Part shown: positions 5,375 through 54,665 of the stretch, in pieces
How the letters are laid out: every line of letters starts with the position of its first letter
How positions within the stretch are numbered: position 1 is the stretch's first letter
NCBI GenBank assembly: GCA_024708885.1
Contig: JANJXT010000035.1
Span: 1 to 64,000 of the forward strand
Direction: 5' to 3'
DNA: 64,000 nt
From: Thiobacillus sp.
GTDB taxonomy: Bacteria > Pseudomonadota > Gammaproteobacteria > Burkholderiales > Thiobacillaceae
Program-made: the position numbers and the translations under genes
Notes under the pieces: generated by a model
What the model was told of the DNA's origin: nothing
Seen by the model: only the letters and a program-made list of their open reading frames with translations
The model's database searches: none

Positions 5375-6796
5375 ATGGCAGTTAAGACCTATAACGCGGG
5401 CGTGAAAGAGTACCGCGAGACCTACTGGATGCCCAACTACACCCCGTTGGACACCGACTTACTGGCCTGCTTCAAGGTCGTGCCGCAGGCGGGCGTGCCC
5501 CGTGAAGAGGCCGCCGCCGCCGTGGCCGCCGAGTCTTCCACCGGTACCTGGACCACCGTGTGGACCGACCTGCTGACTGACCTGGACTACTACAAGGGCC
5601 GCGCCTACGCCATCGAGGACGTGCCGGGCGACGATGAGGCCTTCTACGCCTTCATCGCCTACCCCATCGACCTGTTCGAGGAAGGCTCCGTGGTCAACGT
5701 GCTGACCTCCCTGGTGGGCAACGTGTTCGGCTTCAAGGCGGTGCGTTCCCTGCGTCTGGAAGACGTACGCATCCCCATCGCCTACGTCAAGACCTGCGGC
5801 GGTCCCCCGCACGGCATCCAGGTCGAGCGCGACATCATGAACAAGTACGGCCGGCCGCTGCTGGGCTGCACCATCAAGCCCAAGCTGGGCCTGTCGGCCA
5901 AGAACTACGGTCGTGCGGTGTACGAATGCCTGCGCGGCGGTCTGGACTTCACCAAGGACGACGAGAACGTCAACAGCCAGCCGTTCATGCGTTGGCGTCA
6001 GCGCTTCGACTTCGTGCAGGAGGCCATCGAGAAGGCCGAGCGCGAAACCGGCGAGCGCAAGGGCCACTACCTGAACGTGACCGCGCCGACGCCCGAAGAG
6101 ATGTACAAGCGCGCCGAGTACGCCAAGGAAATCGGCTCGCCGATCATCATGCACGACTACCTCACCGGTGGTCTGTGCGCCAACACCGGTCTGGCCAACT
6201 GGTGCCGGGACAACGGCATGTTGCTGCACATCCACCGCGCCATGCACGCCGTGCTCGACCGCAACCCGCACCACGGCATCCACTTCCGCGTGCTGACCAA
6301 GGTGCTGCGCCTGTCCGGCGGCGACCACCTGCACTCGGGCACCGTCGTCGGCAAGCTGGAAGGCGACCGCGACGCGACCCTGGGCTGGATCGACACCATG
6401 CGCGACGAGTTCATCAAGGAAGACCGTTCGCGCGGCCTGTTCTTCGACCAGGACTGGGGCTCGATGCCCGGCGTGATCCCGGTTGCCTCCGGCGGCATCC
6501 ACGTGTGGCACATGCCCGCGCTGGTCAACATCTTCGGCGACGACTCGGTGCTGCAATTCGGCGGCGGGACACTTGGACATCCCTGGGGCAACGCCGCCGG
6601 CGCCGCCGCCAACCGCGTCGCGCTGGAAGCCTGCGTGGAAGCCCGCAACCAGGGCCGTCAGCTGGAGAAGGAAGGCAAGGAGATCCTGACCGCCGCCGCC
6701 GCCAACAGCCCGGAACTGAAGATCGCCATGGAAACGTGGAAAGAGATCAAGTTCGAGTTCGACACCGTCGACAAGCTGGACGTCGCCCACAAGTAA
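5375..6796 (+). CDS. cbbL: RuBisCO large subunit, form I (IA-like)
   Basis: [46 protein letters not shown]; adjacent cbbS and cbbQ. Confidence 0.99.
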
Positions 6797-6798
6797 GC

Positions 6799-6890
6799 AG
6801 GATTAAGGATTCAGGGATCAGGATTCAGGGAAAAAAGCGCGGCGCAGCCGCACCACCCCTGAATCCTGAATCCCGACCCCTGACCCCTCA
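6799..6890. repeat. Inverted repeat of GGATTCAGGGATCAGG words in the cbbL-cbbS spacer
   Basis: GGATTCAGGGATCAGGATTCAGGG ... CCCCTGAATCCTGAATCCCGACCCCTGACCCC. Confidence 0.8.
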
Positions 6891-6910
6891 TCAATTTGAA
6901 AGGAACCCAA

Positions 6911-7317: not shown

Positions 7318-7324
7318 TTGGCTT

Positions 7325-7457
7325 GTTTATCCGCGAAGGACGCGAAGGACCACGAAGAAAATCTTCGGGCTGGCTTTCCGGCACTTTGTCTGGACGTGGC
7401 TTCTGGCCTTTATCGTCTTTCCTTCGCGCCGCTTCGCGTCCTTCGCGGATGAATAAA
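7325..7457. repeat. ~133-bp inverted-repeat element (CGCGAAGGACGCGAAGG arms) in the cbbS-cbbQ spacer
   Basis: TTTATCCGCGAAGGACGCGAAGGACCACGAAG ... CCTTCGCGCCGCTTCGCGTCCTTCGCGGATGAATAAA. Confidence 0.85.
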
Positions 7458-8274: not shown

Positions 8275-8357
8275 TTGAACCACAGAGGCACAGAGACACA
8301 GCGCAAATCTTCTGTCTCGAATGAGTTTTCCCTGTGCCTCTGTGTCTCTGTGGTGAG
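8275..8357. repeat. Inverted-repeat element with CCACAGAGRCACAGAG arms in the cbbQ-cbbO spacer
   Basis: GAACCACAGAGGCACAGAGACACAG ... CCTGTGCCTCTGTGTCTCTGTGGTGA. Confidence 0.88.
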
Positions 8358-15529: not shown

Positions 15530-16978
15530 ATGCACTCGCTCCAGGCCAAGATCGCCCTTGCCTACCTCTCGCTCGCAGCGCTGGTCGTCGGCCTGTCGGC
15601 CGTGGCGCTGTTCGAGCTCGCGCGCATCGAGGCCAAGGTGAACGAGGGCGGCAAGGTCACGGAGCTGTTCGATGCGGCACTGGAGATGCGGCGCTTCGAG
15701 AAGAACTACTTTCTGTATGCGCAGCCCTCCGATCTGGAGGAGCATGGCCGTTTCGTCGCGCGCCTGCGCGAGCTCGCCGAGCGTGACGCAGCCGTGATCG
15801 ACGCCGTCGCGGCGCCGGGCGCGGCGGCGCAATGGGTCGATGCGCTGTCGAGCTATGCGGTCGCGATGGACGCGTACGTGCAGGCGCCGCTCGACGAGGC
15901 CCTCGCGGCGGCGGTGCGCCGCGACGGCTACCGCATCGTCACGCTCGGCGAGCACCTCGCCCAGCGCGAGCGCCGCTCGGTCGACCTCGCGCTGCGCAAG
16001 CACCGGCAGAATTTCAAGTATTTCCTGGTGGCGGTGGCGACCATCCTGGTGCTGACCGGATTCTTTCTCGCGCGCCTCGTCACGCGTCCGCTCAAGGCCA
16101 TGGAGGAGCACATGGAAGCGGTGGCGAGCGGACGGCTGAAGCGGCTGGAGCCGGACAGCCGCGACCGTGAATTCGTTTCCCTCACGGAGGCCTTCAACCA
16201 TGTGCTCGAGGAGCTGGAACGCCGCCAGCACACCCTGGTGCGCTCGGAAAAGCTGGCCTCGCTCGGCACGCTGCTTTCTGGCGTCGCGCACGAACTCAAC
16301 AATCCGCTGTCCAACATTTCATCGTCGGCGCAGATCCTGCGCGAGGATCCCGACCTCGACGCGGGCCTGCGCACCGAGCTGATCGGCGACATCGACGACG
16401 AAACCCTGCGCGCGCGGCACATCGTTCGCGCCCTGCTCGACTATTCGGGCGACCGTGAATTCCGGCCCGCCCCGCTTGCGCTTCCCGAGCTGGTCGAGGA
16501 GACGCTGCGCTTTCTCAAGAACAAGCGCCCGACGGCGGTCGAGGTGCGGGTCGACATCACGCCCGGCCTTGCCATCGTCGCCGACCGCCCGCGCCTGCAG
16601 CAGGTGCTCCTCAACCTCATCCTCAACGCCTACGATGCCATGGGCAGCGCGGGCGTACTGGAAATTTCGGCGCGCCGGCTGAAAACCGGCGAGCGCGACG
16701 ACGATTTTCCCGCGGCGCTCGATGGCTGCCGTGCAGGCGTGCCGGTTGTCGAGATCGAGATCGCCGACGATGGCCCGGGCATTCCGCCGGAGCTCCTCGA
16801 GCGCGTGTTCGACCCCTTCGTGACCACCAAGCCGGTGGGGCATGGCAGTGGACTGGGGCTGTTCGTTGCCTTTGAAATCATCGAAAAACACGGCGGCTGC
16901 ATGGCCGCCGACAACCGGCCCGGCGGCGGGGCGCGTTTTCGCATCCGCCTGCCGGCCGAGCGGAAAGACCTGCCATGA
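15530..16978 (+). CDS. Membrane sensor histidine kinase (periplasmic helical sensor, HAMP-like, NtrB-type)
   Basis: Two TMs, LASLGTLLSGVAHELNNPLSNI H-box, GHGSGLGLFVAFEIIEKHGG; followed by a sigma54 response regulator. Confidence 0.9.
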   Translation: MHSLQAKIALAYLSLAALVVGLSAVALFELARIEAKVNEGGKVTELFDAALEMRRFEKNYFLYAQPSDLEEHGRFVARLRELAERDAAVIDAVAAPGAAAQWVDALSSYAVAMDAYVQAPLDEALAAAVRRDGYRIVTLGEHLAQRERRSVDLALRKHRQNFKYFLVAVATILVLTGFFLARLVTRPLKAMEEHMEAVASGRLKRLEPDSRDREFVSLTEAFNHVLEELERRQHTLVRSEKLASLGTLLSGVAHELNNPLSNISSSAQILREDPDLDAGLRTELIGDIDDETLRARHIVRALLDYSGDREFRPAPLALPELVEETLRFLKNKRPTAVEVRVDITPGLAIVADRPRLQQVLLNLILNAYDAMGSAGVLEISARRLKTGERDDDFPAALDGCRAGVPVVEIEIADDGPGIPPELLERVFDPFVTTKPVGHGSGLGLFVAFEIIEKHGGCMAADNRPGGGARFRIRLPAERKDLP

Positions 16979-16993
16979 ACCTGGAAAAATCGA

Positions 16994-17138
16994 TTGAACC
17001 CCAGAGACACGGAGCACAGCGGGCAAAGCCATATGCTTGTTTCGCGGCTCACCCGATGGCTGCGCGGGGAAAAGCGTGGGGATGCCCTGTTTTTCGGGTT
17101 TCTCTGTGCTGCTGTGTCCCTGTGGTGGGGAATGCAGG
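16994..17138. mobile_element. MITE-like ~145-bp element with CCACAGAGACACAG-type inverted termini, copy A
   Basis: Termini and core align with the reverse complement of 38706-38853. Confidence 0.8.
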
Positions 17139-18491
<1,353 letters not shown>

Positions 18492-38681: not shown

Positions 38682-38705
38682 CGTCGGTCTCCTCCCCTTG
38701 TTTAT

Positions 38706-38853
38706 CCTGCATTCCGCACCACAGAGACACAGAGGCACAGAGAAACCCGAAACAGGACATCTCCGCGCTTTTTCCCGCTCATCCATCGGGTGAACCACGG
38801 CAGGAATGCAAATATATGTTTTTCTCGCTGTTCTCTGTGTCTCTGTGGTTCAA
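38706..38853. mobile_element. MITE-like ~148-bp element, copy B (opposite orientation to copy A)
   Basis: ITRs ACCACAGAGACACAGAGGCACAGAG / CTCTGTGTCTCTGTGGTT; core matches 16994-17138. Confidence 0.85.
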
Positions 38854-38930
38854 CTGCGCTTTCTAAGCTTATTCGGAACAGCGCGTGCCTTGTGCCCCCT
38901 CGCCCGCTTGCGGGAGGGCGGGCACCGGGC

Positions 38931-51281: not shown

Positions 51282-52652
51282 TCAGCCCGCGTTGCCCGCG
51301 CCGCGCTGTCGCAGCACGTCCAGCAGCCTGCCGTGGAGGCCGCCGAAGCTGCCGTTGCTCATCACCAGCACCTGGTCGCCTGCCTGCGCGTCGTCTGCCA
51401 GCTGCGCGATGAGGGCGTCGAGATCGTCGAATACGCTCGCCTTGTCACCGAGCGGGGCGAGCGCCGCGCGCGCATCCCAGCCCAGATCGGCGCCATGGCA
51501 ATAGACCCGGTCGGCCCCGGCGAGGCTGCCCGGCAGCTGCGCTTTCATCACGCCGAGCTTCATCGTGTTGGAGCGCGGCTCCAGCACGGCGAGAATGCGC
51601 GCCGCACCGACCTTGCGGCGCAGGCCCTCGATGGTCGTGGCGATCGCGGTGGGATGGTGGGCGAAGTCGTCGTACACGGTGATGCCGTGCACGCTGCCGC
51701 GCACTTCCATGCGTCGTTTCACGTTCTCGAAGCGCGCCAGGGCGTCGATCGCCGCCGCGGCGGGCACGCCGGCGTGACGCGCGGCGGCGATGGCAGCGAG
51801 GGCGTTCATGCGGTTGTGCTCGCCGAATGCCGTCCAGTTCACGCGCCCCTGCAAAACACCGCCCAGGCTGACGTCGAAGCTGCCGTCAGCGTCGGGGGGA
51901 CCGGCCTGCCAGCCCGCGGCACTGCCGAAACGCTCCACCGGTGTCCACGCACCGCGCGCCAGCACGCGATCGAGCTTGCCGTCCTGCGCGTTGGCGATGA
52001 TCAGGCCGTTGCCGGGCACGGTGCGCACCAGATGGTGGAACTGCGTTTCGATCGCCGCGAGATCGGGAAAGATGTCGGCGTGATCGTATTCGAGATTGTT
52101 GAGGATGGCGGTGCGCGGCCGGTAGTGGACGAACTTGGAGCGCTTGTCGAAGAACGCGGTGTCGTATTCGTCCGCTTCGATGACGAAGAACGGGCTGTCG
52201 GTCAACCGTGCCGACAGGCCGAAATTCTGCGGAATGCCGCCGATGAGAAAACCCGGCGCCAGCCCCGCGTCTTCGAGGATCCACGCCAGCATCGCGCTGG
52301 TGGTGGTCTTGCCGTGGGTGCCGGCGACCGCGAGCACCCATTTGTCCCGCAGCATGGTGTCGGCGAGCCATTGCGGCCCGGAGGTGTACGGCAGGCCGCG
52401 GTCGAGGATGGCCTCCATCAGCGGCTGCTTGCCGCGGGCGACGACGTTGCCGACCACGAAGATGTCGGCACCGATGTCGGCCTGGCGCGCGTCCCAGCCT
52501 TCGATGAGCTCGATGCCGAGCGCGCGCAGCTGGTCCGACATGGGCGGGTACACGTTGGCGTCGCAACCGGTGACGGAATGTCCCGCGGCGCGGGCAATGG
52601 CGGCAATGCCGCCCATGAAGGTGCCGCAGATGCCGAGAATGTGGAGGTGCAT
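51282..52652 (-). CDS. mpl: UDP-N-acetylmuramate:L-alanyl-gamma-D-glutamyl-meso-diaminopimelate ligase
   Basis: MHLHILGICGTFMGGIAAIARAAGHSVTGCD; VAGTHGKTTTSAM; VYDDFAHHPTAI. Confidence 0.96.
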   Translation of the reverse strand: MHLHILGICGTFMGGIAAIARAAGHSVTGCDANVYPPMSDQLRALGIELIEGWDARQADIGADIFVVGNVVARGKQPLMEAILDRGLPYTSGPQWLADTMLRDKWVLAVAGTHGKTTTSAMLAWILEDAGLAPGFLIGGIPQNFGLSARLTDSPFFVIEADEYDTAFFDKRSKFVHYRPRTAILNNLEYDHADIFPDLAAIETQFHHLVRTVPGNGLIIANAQDGKLDRVLARGAWTPVERFGSAAGWQAGPPDADGSFDVSLGGVLQGRVNWTAFGEHNRMNALAAIAAARHAGVPAAAAIDALARFENVKRRMEVRGSVHGITVYDDFAHHPTAIATTIEGLRRKVGAARILAVLEPRSNTMKLGVMKAQLPGSLAGADRVYCHGADLGWDARAALAPLGDKASVFDDLDALIAQLADDAQAGDQVLVMSNGSFGGLHGRLLDVLRQRGAGNAG

Positions 52653-52660
52653 GATTTTCA

Positions 52661-52750
52661 GGGATCAGGGATCAGGGATCAGGGATCAGGGATCAGGGAT
52701 CAGGGGTCAGGGGTCAGGGATCAGGGATCAGGGATCAGGGATCAGGGATT
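52661..52750. repeat. Tandem heptamer array (GGGATCA)n, 12 full units plus a partial
   Basis: Direct count: units 7 and 8 read GGGGTCA, all others GGGATCA. Confidence 0.97.
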
Positions 52751-54665
52751 ATCCCACGGCGGGGGCGCGCGGCTGCTGGACGAGATGGGTCAGCAGCGCG
52801 CGCAGTTTGGCGGGGCGCAGGGGCTTGTGCAGCAGGGGCAGGCCGGCCTGGGCGATGCGTTGCAGACTTTCCGGTGCGGTGTCGCCGGTGATGAGGATGG
52901 CGGGGATGCCGGGGCCGAATTTCTCGCGCAGGCGCGCGATCGCCGCGATCCCGTCGGTGTCGCCGGGCAGGCGATAATCCGAGATGATGACGTCGGGCGC
53001 GCATTCGAGGCTGTCGAGCCACTGCTCGGCTTCGTCGGCGTTGCGGGCGGTGACCAGACCGATGTTCCAGTTGTCGAACAGCTCCGCCATGCCGTGCAGG
53101 ATGGCGTTTTCGTCGTCGACCAGCAGCACCAGGGTGTCGGGCGGAATCACGTCGGTGACGGCACTGGCGCTGACGGATGGGCTCGCACGCACGCGCGCGG
53201 GGTCGCCAAGCGGCACATCGATGCTGAACCTGGAGCCGTGGCCCGGGCGCGAGACGAGGTCGATGCGGTGGCCCAGCAGACGCGCCAGGCGCGAGACGAT
53301 GGCCAGTCCCAGGCCGAGCCCCTTGTTGCGGTTGCGTGCCGGATTGTTGAGCTGGACGAATTCCTGGAACACGCTTTTCTGCAGCTCGGGCGGAATGCCC
53401 CGCCCGCTGTCGATGACGCTGATGCGCAGCATGCGGCCGCGGCGCCGGCAGCCGACCAGTACCCCGCCGTCGTCGGTGTAGCGGATGGCGTTGGTGATGA
53501 GGTTGGCGAGTATGCGTTCGATCAGCAGCGGGTCGCTGCAGATCACCGCATTGCAGGGGCGGATGCGCAGCTTGAGGTGTTTCTCCCCCGCCAGCGCGCC
53601 GAACTGCTTGCCGAGGACGTCGAACAGGGGCTGTAGCGCGATGTGCTCCGGGTGCGCCGCGATCGCGCCGGCATCCAGCCGCGAGATGTCCAGCAGCGCA
53701 TTGAACAGCAGCTCCATGGCGGCGGTCGATGCCTCGATGTTCTCCACCAGCGTCTGCGTCTCGGGCTCGCGGCTGCGCGTTTTCAGCGCGGCGACGAACA
53801 GCGACAGCGCGTGCAGCGGTTGGCGCAGGTCGTGGCTGGCCGCCGCGAGAAAACGCGATTTGGCCTGATTCGCGCGTTCGGCCTGGTCCTTCTTCGCGGC
53901 GAGGTCGGCGGTTGCGTCGAGAATGCGCAGCTCAAGCTCGGTGCGGTGTGCCTGCAGCGCTTCGGCCATGCGGTCGACGCCGCGCGACAGCTGGCCGATT
54001 TCGCCGGCCGTGGTCAGCCGCGCACGCGCGCCGAGATCGCCCTGCGCCAGGCGCTCGACCGCGTCGCCGATCTGTCCCAGCTGTCCGGCAAGCCGGTTGG
54101 ACAGCCGCCAGGCGAGCACGGCGCTCAGGGCCAGCGCCGCCACCATGAGGAATGCGGCATGCAGCAGCGTGGTGTGCCGGAAGGCCCGGATCTCGTCGCG
54201 CGAGACGGTGATCTCGACTTCGCCGAGCAGGGGGCTTGCCGCCACGCCGGAATCCAGGGTGGCGGACAGGTTGGCGGTGGGCAGCACGATGGGGACGCGC
54301 CGGTGCAAGCGCCCGTCGTCGTCCGCTTCCTGCGGCGGCGCACCCAGTCCCACGATCAGGCGCTGCTGCGGATCGAGTACGCGTGCCGACGTGAGCCGGT
54401 TGTCCTTCATCTCGCCTTCCAACTGGCTGTGCACCCTGGCGAAATCGCCTGCCACGAGCGCGTAGGGCAGCACGTCGGCGAGATGGTGCGCGGCGCTGTT
54501 GGCGCGTGCCTGCAATTCCGCATCCGCCTGCGACAGGGTGCGCGTGGTGAAATGGGCGACCATGCCGAACGCCGTGAGCAGCGCCGGCAGCAGCGCGATC
54601 GGCAGGATGCGGCGGCGGATGCTGCCGCCCCGGCCGGGCAGCCGCGTGACGCTGGTGTGCGTCAC
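52749..54665 (-). CDS. Hybrid sensor histidine kinase with C-terminal receiver (GTG start)
   Basis: FLAAASHDLRQPLHALSLFVAAL H-box; GLGLGLAIVSRLARLLGH; receiver VLLVDDENAILHGM. Confidence 0.93.
   Translation of the reverse strand: MTHTSVTRLPGRGGSIRRRILPIALLPALLTAFGMVAHFTTRTLSQADAELQARANSAAHHLADVLPYALVAGDFARVHSQLEGEMKDNRLTSARVLDPQQRLIVGLGAPPQEADDDGRLHRRVPIVLPTANLSATLDSGVAASPLLGEVEITVSRDEIRAFRHTTLLHAAFLMVAALALSAVLAWRLSNRLAGQLGQIGDAVERLAQGDLGARARLTTAGEIGQLSRGVDRMAEALQAHRTELELRILDATADLAAKKDQAERANQAKSRFLAAASHDLRQPLHALSLFVAALKTRSREPETQTLVENIEASTAAMELLFNALLDISRLDAGAIAAHPEHIALQPLFDVLGKQFGALAGEKHLKLRIRPCNAVICSDPLLIERILANLITNAIRYTDDGGVLVGCRRRGRMLRISVIDSGRGIPPELQKSVFQEFVQLNNPARNRNKGLGLGLAIVSRLARLLGHRIDLVSRPGHGSRFSIDVPLGDPARVRASPSVSASAVTDVIPPDTLVLLVDDENAILHGMAELFDNWNIGLVTARNADEAEQWLDSLECAPDVIISDYRLPGDTDGIAAIARLREKFGPGIPAILITGDTAPESLQRIAQAGLPLLHKPLRPAKLRALLTHLVQQPRAPAVG

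Follow-up and report, generated by a model that had tools for sequence, protein, structure and literature searches.

The window, i.e. the whole stretch of 64,000 nucleotides analysed here, contains two copies, A and B, of a family of non-autonomous MITEs with IS1380-type ends, which are probably moved in trans by an IS1380-family transposase. The parental genome (G000) carries at least 38 copies of this mobile element, about 160 bp in length. The evidence consists of direct observations on copy number, target duplications, the consensus shared by the targets, similarity of the ends and empty sites. The window is part of contig 36 of an assembly of 2.56 Mb, which is divided into 67 contigs and is 84% complete. 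An earlier, sequence-only reading had reported a repeat present at two places in the window, with inverted CACAGAG arms, and had described it as MITE-like. Both copies and their arms were found again, and the MITE-like interpretation is borne out by the copy number, the target duplications and an empty site. The features of the window are reported below, where the names radC-like and coaBC-like derive from a reading of the translations.

16980-17138, + strand: MITE copy A, 159 bp long, beginning with CCTGGAAAAA and ending with GGAATGCAGG
16975-16979: ATGAA, the target duplication to the left of copy A, containing the kinase stop codon TGA (16976-16978)
17139-17143: right target duplication of copy A, ATGAA, providing the start codon of an NtrC-type regulator (17139-18491)
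16999-17014, + strand: CACAGAG arm at the left of copy A, with 2 mismatches relative to CCACAGAGACACAGAG
17110-17125, - strand: CACAGAG arm at the right of copy A, with 3 mismatches relative to CCACAGAGACACAGAG
38706-38867, - strand: copy B of the MITE, 162 bp, with radC-like and coaBC-like genes on either side
38701-38705: target duplication of copy B, TTTAT, with 4 of 5 bases the same as in its partner CTTAT
38868-38872: target duplication of copy B, CTTAT, partner of TTTAT
8280-8353: CACAGAG inverted pair of class 2, without the class-1 core, flanked by cbbQ- and cbbO-like genes

Nine matches to the arm motif CCACAGAGACACAGAG are found in the window at up to 3 mismatches, against 0.42 expected and a maximum of 3 in 100 shuffles. 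In the G000 assembly, the motif has 90 forward and 93 reverse matches with up to 2 mismatches; when one mismatch and R at one position are allowed, the matches are 75/85, against 6/9 for the pattern read backward. From the stretches around the motif matches, 53 inverted CACAGAG pairs were extracted. A set of 38, defined by a similarity threshold, shares the core of copies A and B and was named class 1, so that the repeat, originally taken to exist in two copies, is present in 38 with the same core. The other 15 pairs, named class 2, combine CACAGAG arms with interiors that differ from this core and are mostly shorter; no clear target duplication was seen for these pairs, including the one located at 8280-8353. 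Class-1 elements mostly range between about 155 and 175 bp, ends included, and their anatomy is fixed from end to end, the arms being arrays of an 8-bp unit, whose number differs from copy to copy. Identity among the copies of the genome varies between 60 and 98%, with a young set at 94-99%. Several contigs terminate near copies, as expected for a repeat, which breaks the assembly.

Conservation within class 1 extends beyond the arms, as far as a left end reading CCTGGAAAAAGCAGTTGA and a right end reading GGAATGYAGG (GGAATGCAGG in copy A). The limits initially assigned to the two copies, 16994-17138 and 38706-38853, hold at one end and fall about 14 bp short at the other, and what had been described as an asymmetric edge, GGAATGCAGGAT, is made up of the right terminus GGAATGCAGG and the beginning of the ATGAA target duplication. 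Exact 5-bp repeats flank 17 of the 38 class-1 copies (shuffled mean 2.35, maximum 9 in 10,000) and, at one fixed offset, the flanks agree at 142 of 190 positions (shuffled mean 94.9, maximum 116 in 10,000 shuffles); the offset is the best of many, which inflates these duplication statistics somewhat, and the conserved ends stop at the same offset. The consensus of the target duplications is WTNAW. For some copies the duplication is imperfect or absent, as would be the case for old copies. Many short, dispersed copies with common ends, target duplications and, for copy A, an empty orthologous site are the features of a MITE. REP and REPIN sequences, associated with RAYT, are not known to duplicate their target upon insertion; the class-1 copies show 5-bp duplications and IS1380-like ends, and the suggested link to a RAYT-type transposase is not supported. 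At locus L043 (C45:11882-12184 of the same genome) two class-1 copies are located in tandem with one ATAAT common to both, as if the second had inserted in the duplication of the first.

A comparison with orthologous loci lacking the element, indicated by the sequence-only reading as a check, was performed for copy A alone, and revealed both an empty site and a 5-bp target duplication. The joined flanks were sought in 40 congeners; three of them, G010, G029 and G009, contain an empty site, the first two aligning across the junction at 93% and 86%, respectively, over 220 bp without gaps, the third at 75% with small gaps. All three have a single ATGA, shared by the TGA that ends the kinase gene and the ATG that begins the regulator gene, and therefore copy A entered the four-base overlap between the two genes. 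Since ATGAA was duplicated, the element has a stop to its left and a start to its right, and both the kinase (HAMP, HisKA and HATPase_c domains) and the NtrC-type regulator are intact; the rebuilt stop and start follow directly from a comparison of the sequences. The edge of copy A had correctly been placed at the start of the response regulator, as the right duplication ATGAA gives the ATG of the gene located at 17139-18491. A GGGGA within copy A, 7 nt upstream of this ATG, could possibly act as the ribosome-binding site of the regulator, and the translational coupling of kinase and regulator may have been weakened by the insertion. Copy A is a clean example of a transposon located in a translationally coupled operon without damage to either gene, the operon being intact because the 5-bp ATGAA duplication rebuilds stop and start.

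The class-1 ends resemble those of ISEcp1, an IS1380-family element. ISEcp1 has repeats CCTAGATTCTACGT and ACGTGGAATTTAGG, and 5-bp duplications (PMC7864471). As a test, IS1380-family (PF13701) loci were collected from the same order and their ends were read. The detected duplications (TTCAT, CTCAT, TTGAA, ATGAA, TTCAA, TTTAT, TTAAT and ATTAA) have the same length as those of the MITE and follow the same WTNAW consensus, apart from one that departs from it in the first position. The closest ends belong to a subgroup with an intact member on a plasmid of Polaromonas sp. P1-6 (CP087967.1, 343357-344986), which encodes a transposase of 510 residues (PF13701, E 1.5e-24) and has the duplication TTAAA. 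Between the end CCTAGAAACGGCAGTT of this IS and several left ends of the MITE, 13-14 of 16 bases agree, where the chance of 13 or more matching bases is about 1e-5, uncorrected for the number of ends compared; the MITE right end is less similar to IS1380 ends, with 8-11 of 16 bases. Within the genus, the subgroup was found as broken relatives only, in G076 and G012; the one in G076 (E 2e-96) ends in CCTAAAAACCTCAGTT, which shares 15 of 16 bases with a MITE end of G002.

In the assembly of the parental genome, at 84% completeness, no match to the Polaromonas subgroup and no IS with the MITE ends were found. The remark that no transposase is nearby holds, since none was seen beside copy A or copy B; the one intact IS1380-type transposase found in this genome is located on another contig (C16:13006-14277, NF033539, E 2e-94). 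This resident copy was evaluated as partner and discarded, because its ends do not match. An autonomous partner in the same genome is usual for a MITE, but is not a requirement. On the basis of the shared duplication consensus and of the end likeness, the family was therefore filed as an IS1380-type MITE, the source IS of which was not found in the assembly; this IS would have been lost, or would be contained in the unassembled part of the genome.

An IS1380-family enzyme is probably the mover of the element. According to the proposed mechanism, a DDE transposase of this family, acting in trans, would have recognised the CCTGGAAAAAGCAGTTGA...GGAATGYAGG ends, excised the element and inserted it at WTNAW sites cut with a 5-bp stagger; gap repair after joining would have produced the 5-bp duplications. 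For copy A, the target would have been the ATGAA of the overlap between kinase TGA and regulator ATG. A probable mobiliser family is in this way named for a repeat that has reached many copies in several species belonging to a single genus.

Of 61 genomes searched with a consensus, 10, among them G000, contain the element, and all 10 belong to one genus; the copies in congeners have similar ends and often WTNAW duplications. The flanks of ten copies from G010 share no insertion site with the G000 copies compared, which indicates insertion polymorphism between the two genomes. The situation named beforehand as contrary to mobility, i.e. only two copies, both conserved at orthologous sites, is not the one found. 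No class-1 copies were detected on plasmids at the sensitivity of blastn. Partial matches in congeners were evaluated as candidates for a gene-bearing element and rejected, nearly all of them being paired CACAGAG elements with other cores. Elsewhere, one exact match proved to be a class-1 copy, flanked on either side by ATAAT (L216, CAMDKM010000050.1) and located on a metagenome-assembled contig titled Bordetella parapertussis, a title which may be wrong.

The CACAGAG arms, located inside the ends, are also found around genes encoding GxxExxY proteins. In the parental genome, a class-2 pair at C42:51483-51805 encloses the truncated remains of the only such gene found there, and the other eight GxxExxY genes found in the genus are all located between inverted arrays. 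The array units in the genus are CACAGAGR, GCGAAGGAC and two further types, and four of the nine loci have arrays of the CACAGAG type. The genes recur at three sites: one lies between genes resembling gspE and gspF, another between genes resembling trpD and trpC, and the last next to a third gene, the gsp and trp names being derived from a reading of the translations. When the sample was widened to the phylum, a test was possible for 37 loci: the median score of left against right arm is 20, compared to 8.5 for arms taken from mixed loci, and 29 of the 37 loci reach 17, which corresponds to the 95th percentile of mixed pairs. Within the genus, motif counts are higher in genomes holding a GxxExxY gene whose arrays are of the corresponding type (p 0.0002 and 0.002, with no correction for shared ancestry).

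At loci L061, L125-L132 and L186-L215, purine-rich units of 8-9 bp flank GxxExxY (PF13366); the unit varies by locus and the arms match. Loci L127 and L128, from two congeners, are located at the same trpD-trpC junction and contain a GxxExxY gene each, with units that differ between the two loci and arms that match within each. At L126:1492-1899 (- strand) the CACAGAG array enters the GxxExxY reading frame and encodes its first residues, MNHKTINHRDTETQR. In the window, a gene-less inverted pair of GCGAAGGAC is present at 7323-7456, with cbbS- and cbbQ-like genes on either side; its array type is the one flanking GxxExxY genes in G064, G072 and G076 (L129-L131). Tandem TCAGGGA units are found at 52644-52763 and 6790-6892, those at about 6799-6888 forming an inverted pair with cbbL- and cbbS-like genes on either side.

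It may tentatively be proposed that GxxExxY PD-(D/E)XK genes bracketed by locus-specific inverted arrays represent an undescribed module, the gene-less arrays being its non-autonomous offspring, and class 1 an array wrapped in IS1380-type ends, i.e. a chimera of two mobile systems. The inner CACAGAG arms link the MITE to this separate, more surprising pattern, a by-product of the analysis which may matter more. With the arrays, a testable role would become available for a widespread protein of a nuclease superfamily, for which passing mentions and no described function were found in the literature searched, nor a solved structure by sequence; no description of the inverted arrays was found there either, which is weak evidence.

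That the CACAGAG arms are themselves the mobilised part, with the GxxExxY nuclease acting on inverted arrays and spreading gene-less copies, class 1 included, is considered unlikely. The idea draws on the arrays present around every GxxExxY gene found in the genus, of the CACAGAG type in four cases out of nine, and on the motif counts, but the latter ignore shared ancestry, the conserved class-1 ends and the 5-bp duplications are located outside the arms, at IS1380-like termini, the GxxExxY gene of G000 is a remnant, and both G013 and G021 contain many copies and no GxxExxY match. Movement of the MITE by an IS1380-family transposase is the preferred reading.

The location of copy A also raises the question of whether the element seeks start and stop codons, sparing genes by design, which appears very improbable. 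In 10 of the 24 copies with a recognisable duplication, the latter falls on a start or stop codon, in two cases within start-stop overlaps; however, when only non-disruptive sites are considered, 10 of 19 are on codons, compared to 34 of the 93 harmless WTNAW sites that the window contains (p 0.21 in a Fisher test), all counts depending on rough gene calls. Such a share is expected, because the target core TNA gives TAA or TGA when read along one of the two strands. With respect to duplications that contain an ATG, the element shows no bias in orientation (8 right-hand, 9 left-hand). Insertions within genes are strongly depleted (5/24 against 297/390, p 6e-8), as selection would remove them, and this is enough to produce the pattern. 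Active targeting was discarded, there being no excess over the available harmless WTNAW sites.

Even less credible is the possibility that the repeats are kept between genes as functional RNA hairpins, with a regulatory or processing role, and not as transposons: they fold better than shuffled sequences (z -7.5 for copy B, -2.1 for copy A), but the target duplications and the empty site argue against a non-mobile RNA, and a conserved RNA was discarded on account of the scarce variation of the arms, conserved by sequence almost without compensatory change, and of the lack of any Rfam match in the window. A hairpin role may exist in addition to mobility.

No description of these repeat sequences was found in the literature searched, although such absence is weak evidence. 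In the accessible portion of one study dealing with MITEs and IS1380, the MITEs are reported without a tie to its ISs. The family may be compared to three known systems. With IS1380-family ISs, such as ISEcp1 and the Polaromonas IS, the MITE shares ends beginning with CCT and 5-bp duplications and, with those of the same order, the WTNAW target consensus; it differs from them in having no transposase gene, about one tenth of the length, and CACAGAG arrays inside the ends. The GxxExxY (TIGR04256 / PF13366) loci are similar in their inverted arrays of the CACAGAG 8-bp unit, located between co-oriented genes, whereas they carry a gene, and neither a clear target duplication nor outer ends of the IS1380 kind were observed around them. 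MITEAba12, as presented in the accessible part of its description (PMC6382973), is likewise short, non-coding and present in many copies, with inverted ends and target duplications, but its ends are different, and the family described here has a probable mobiliser in the IS1380 family.
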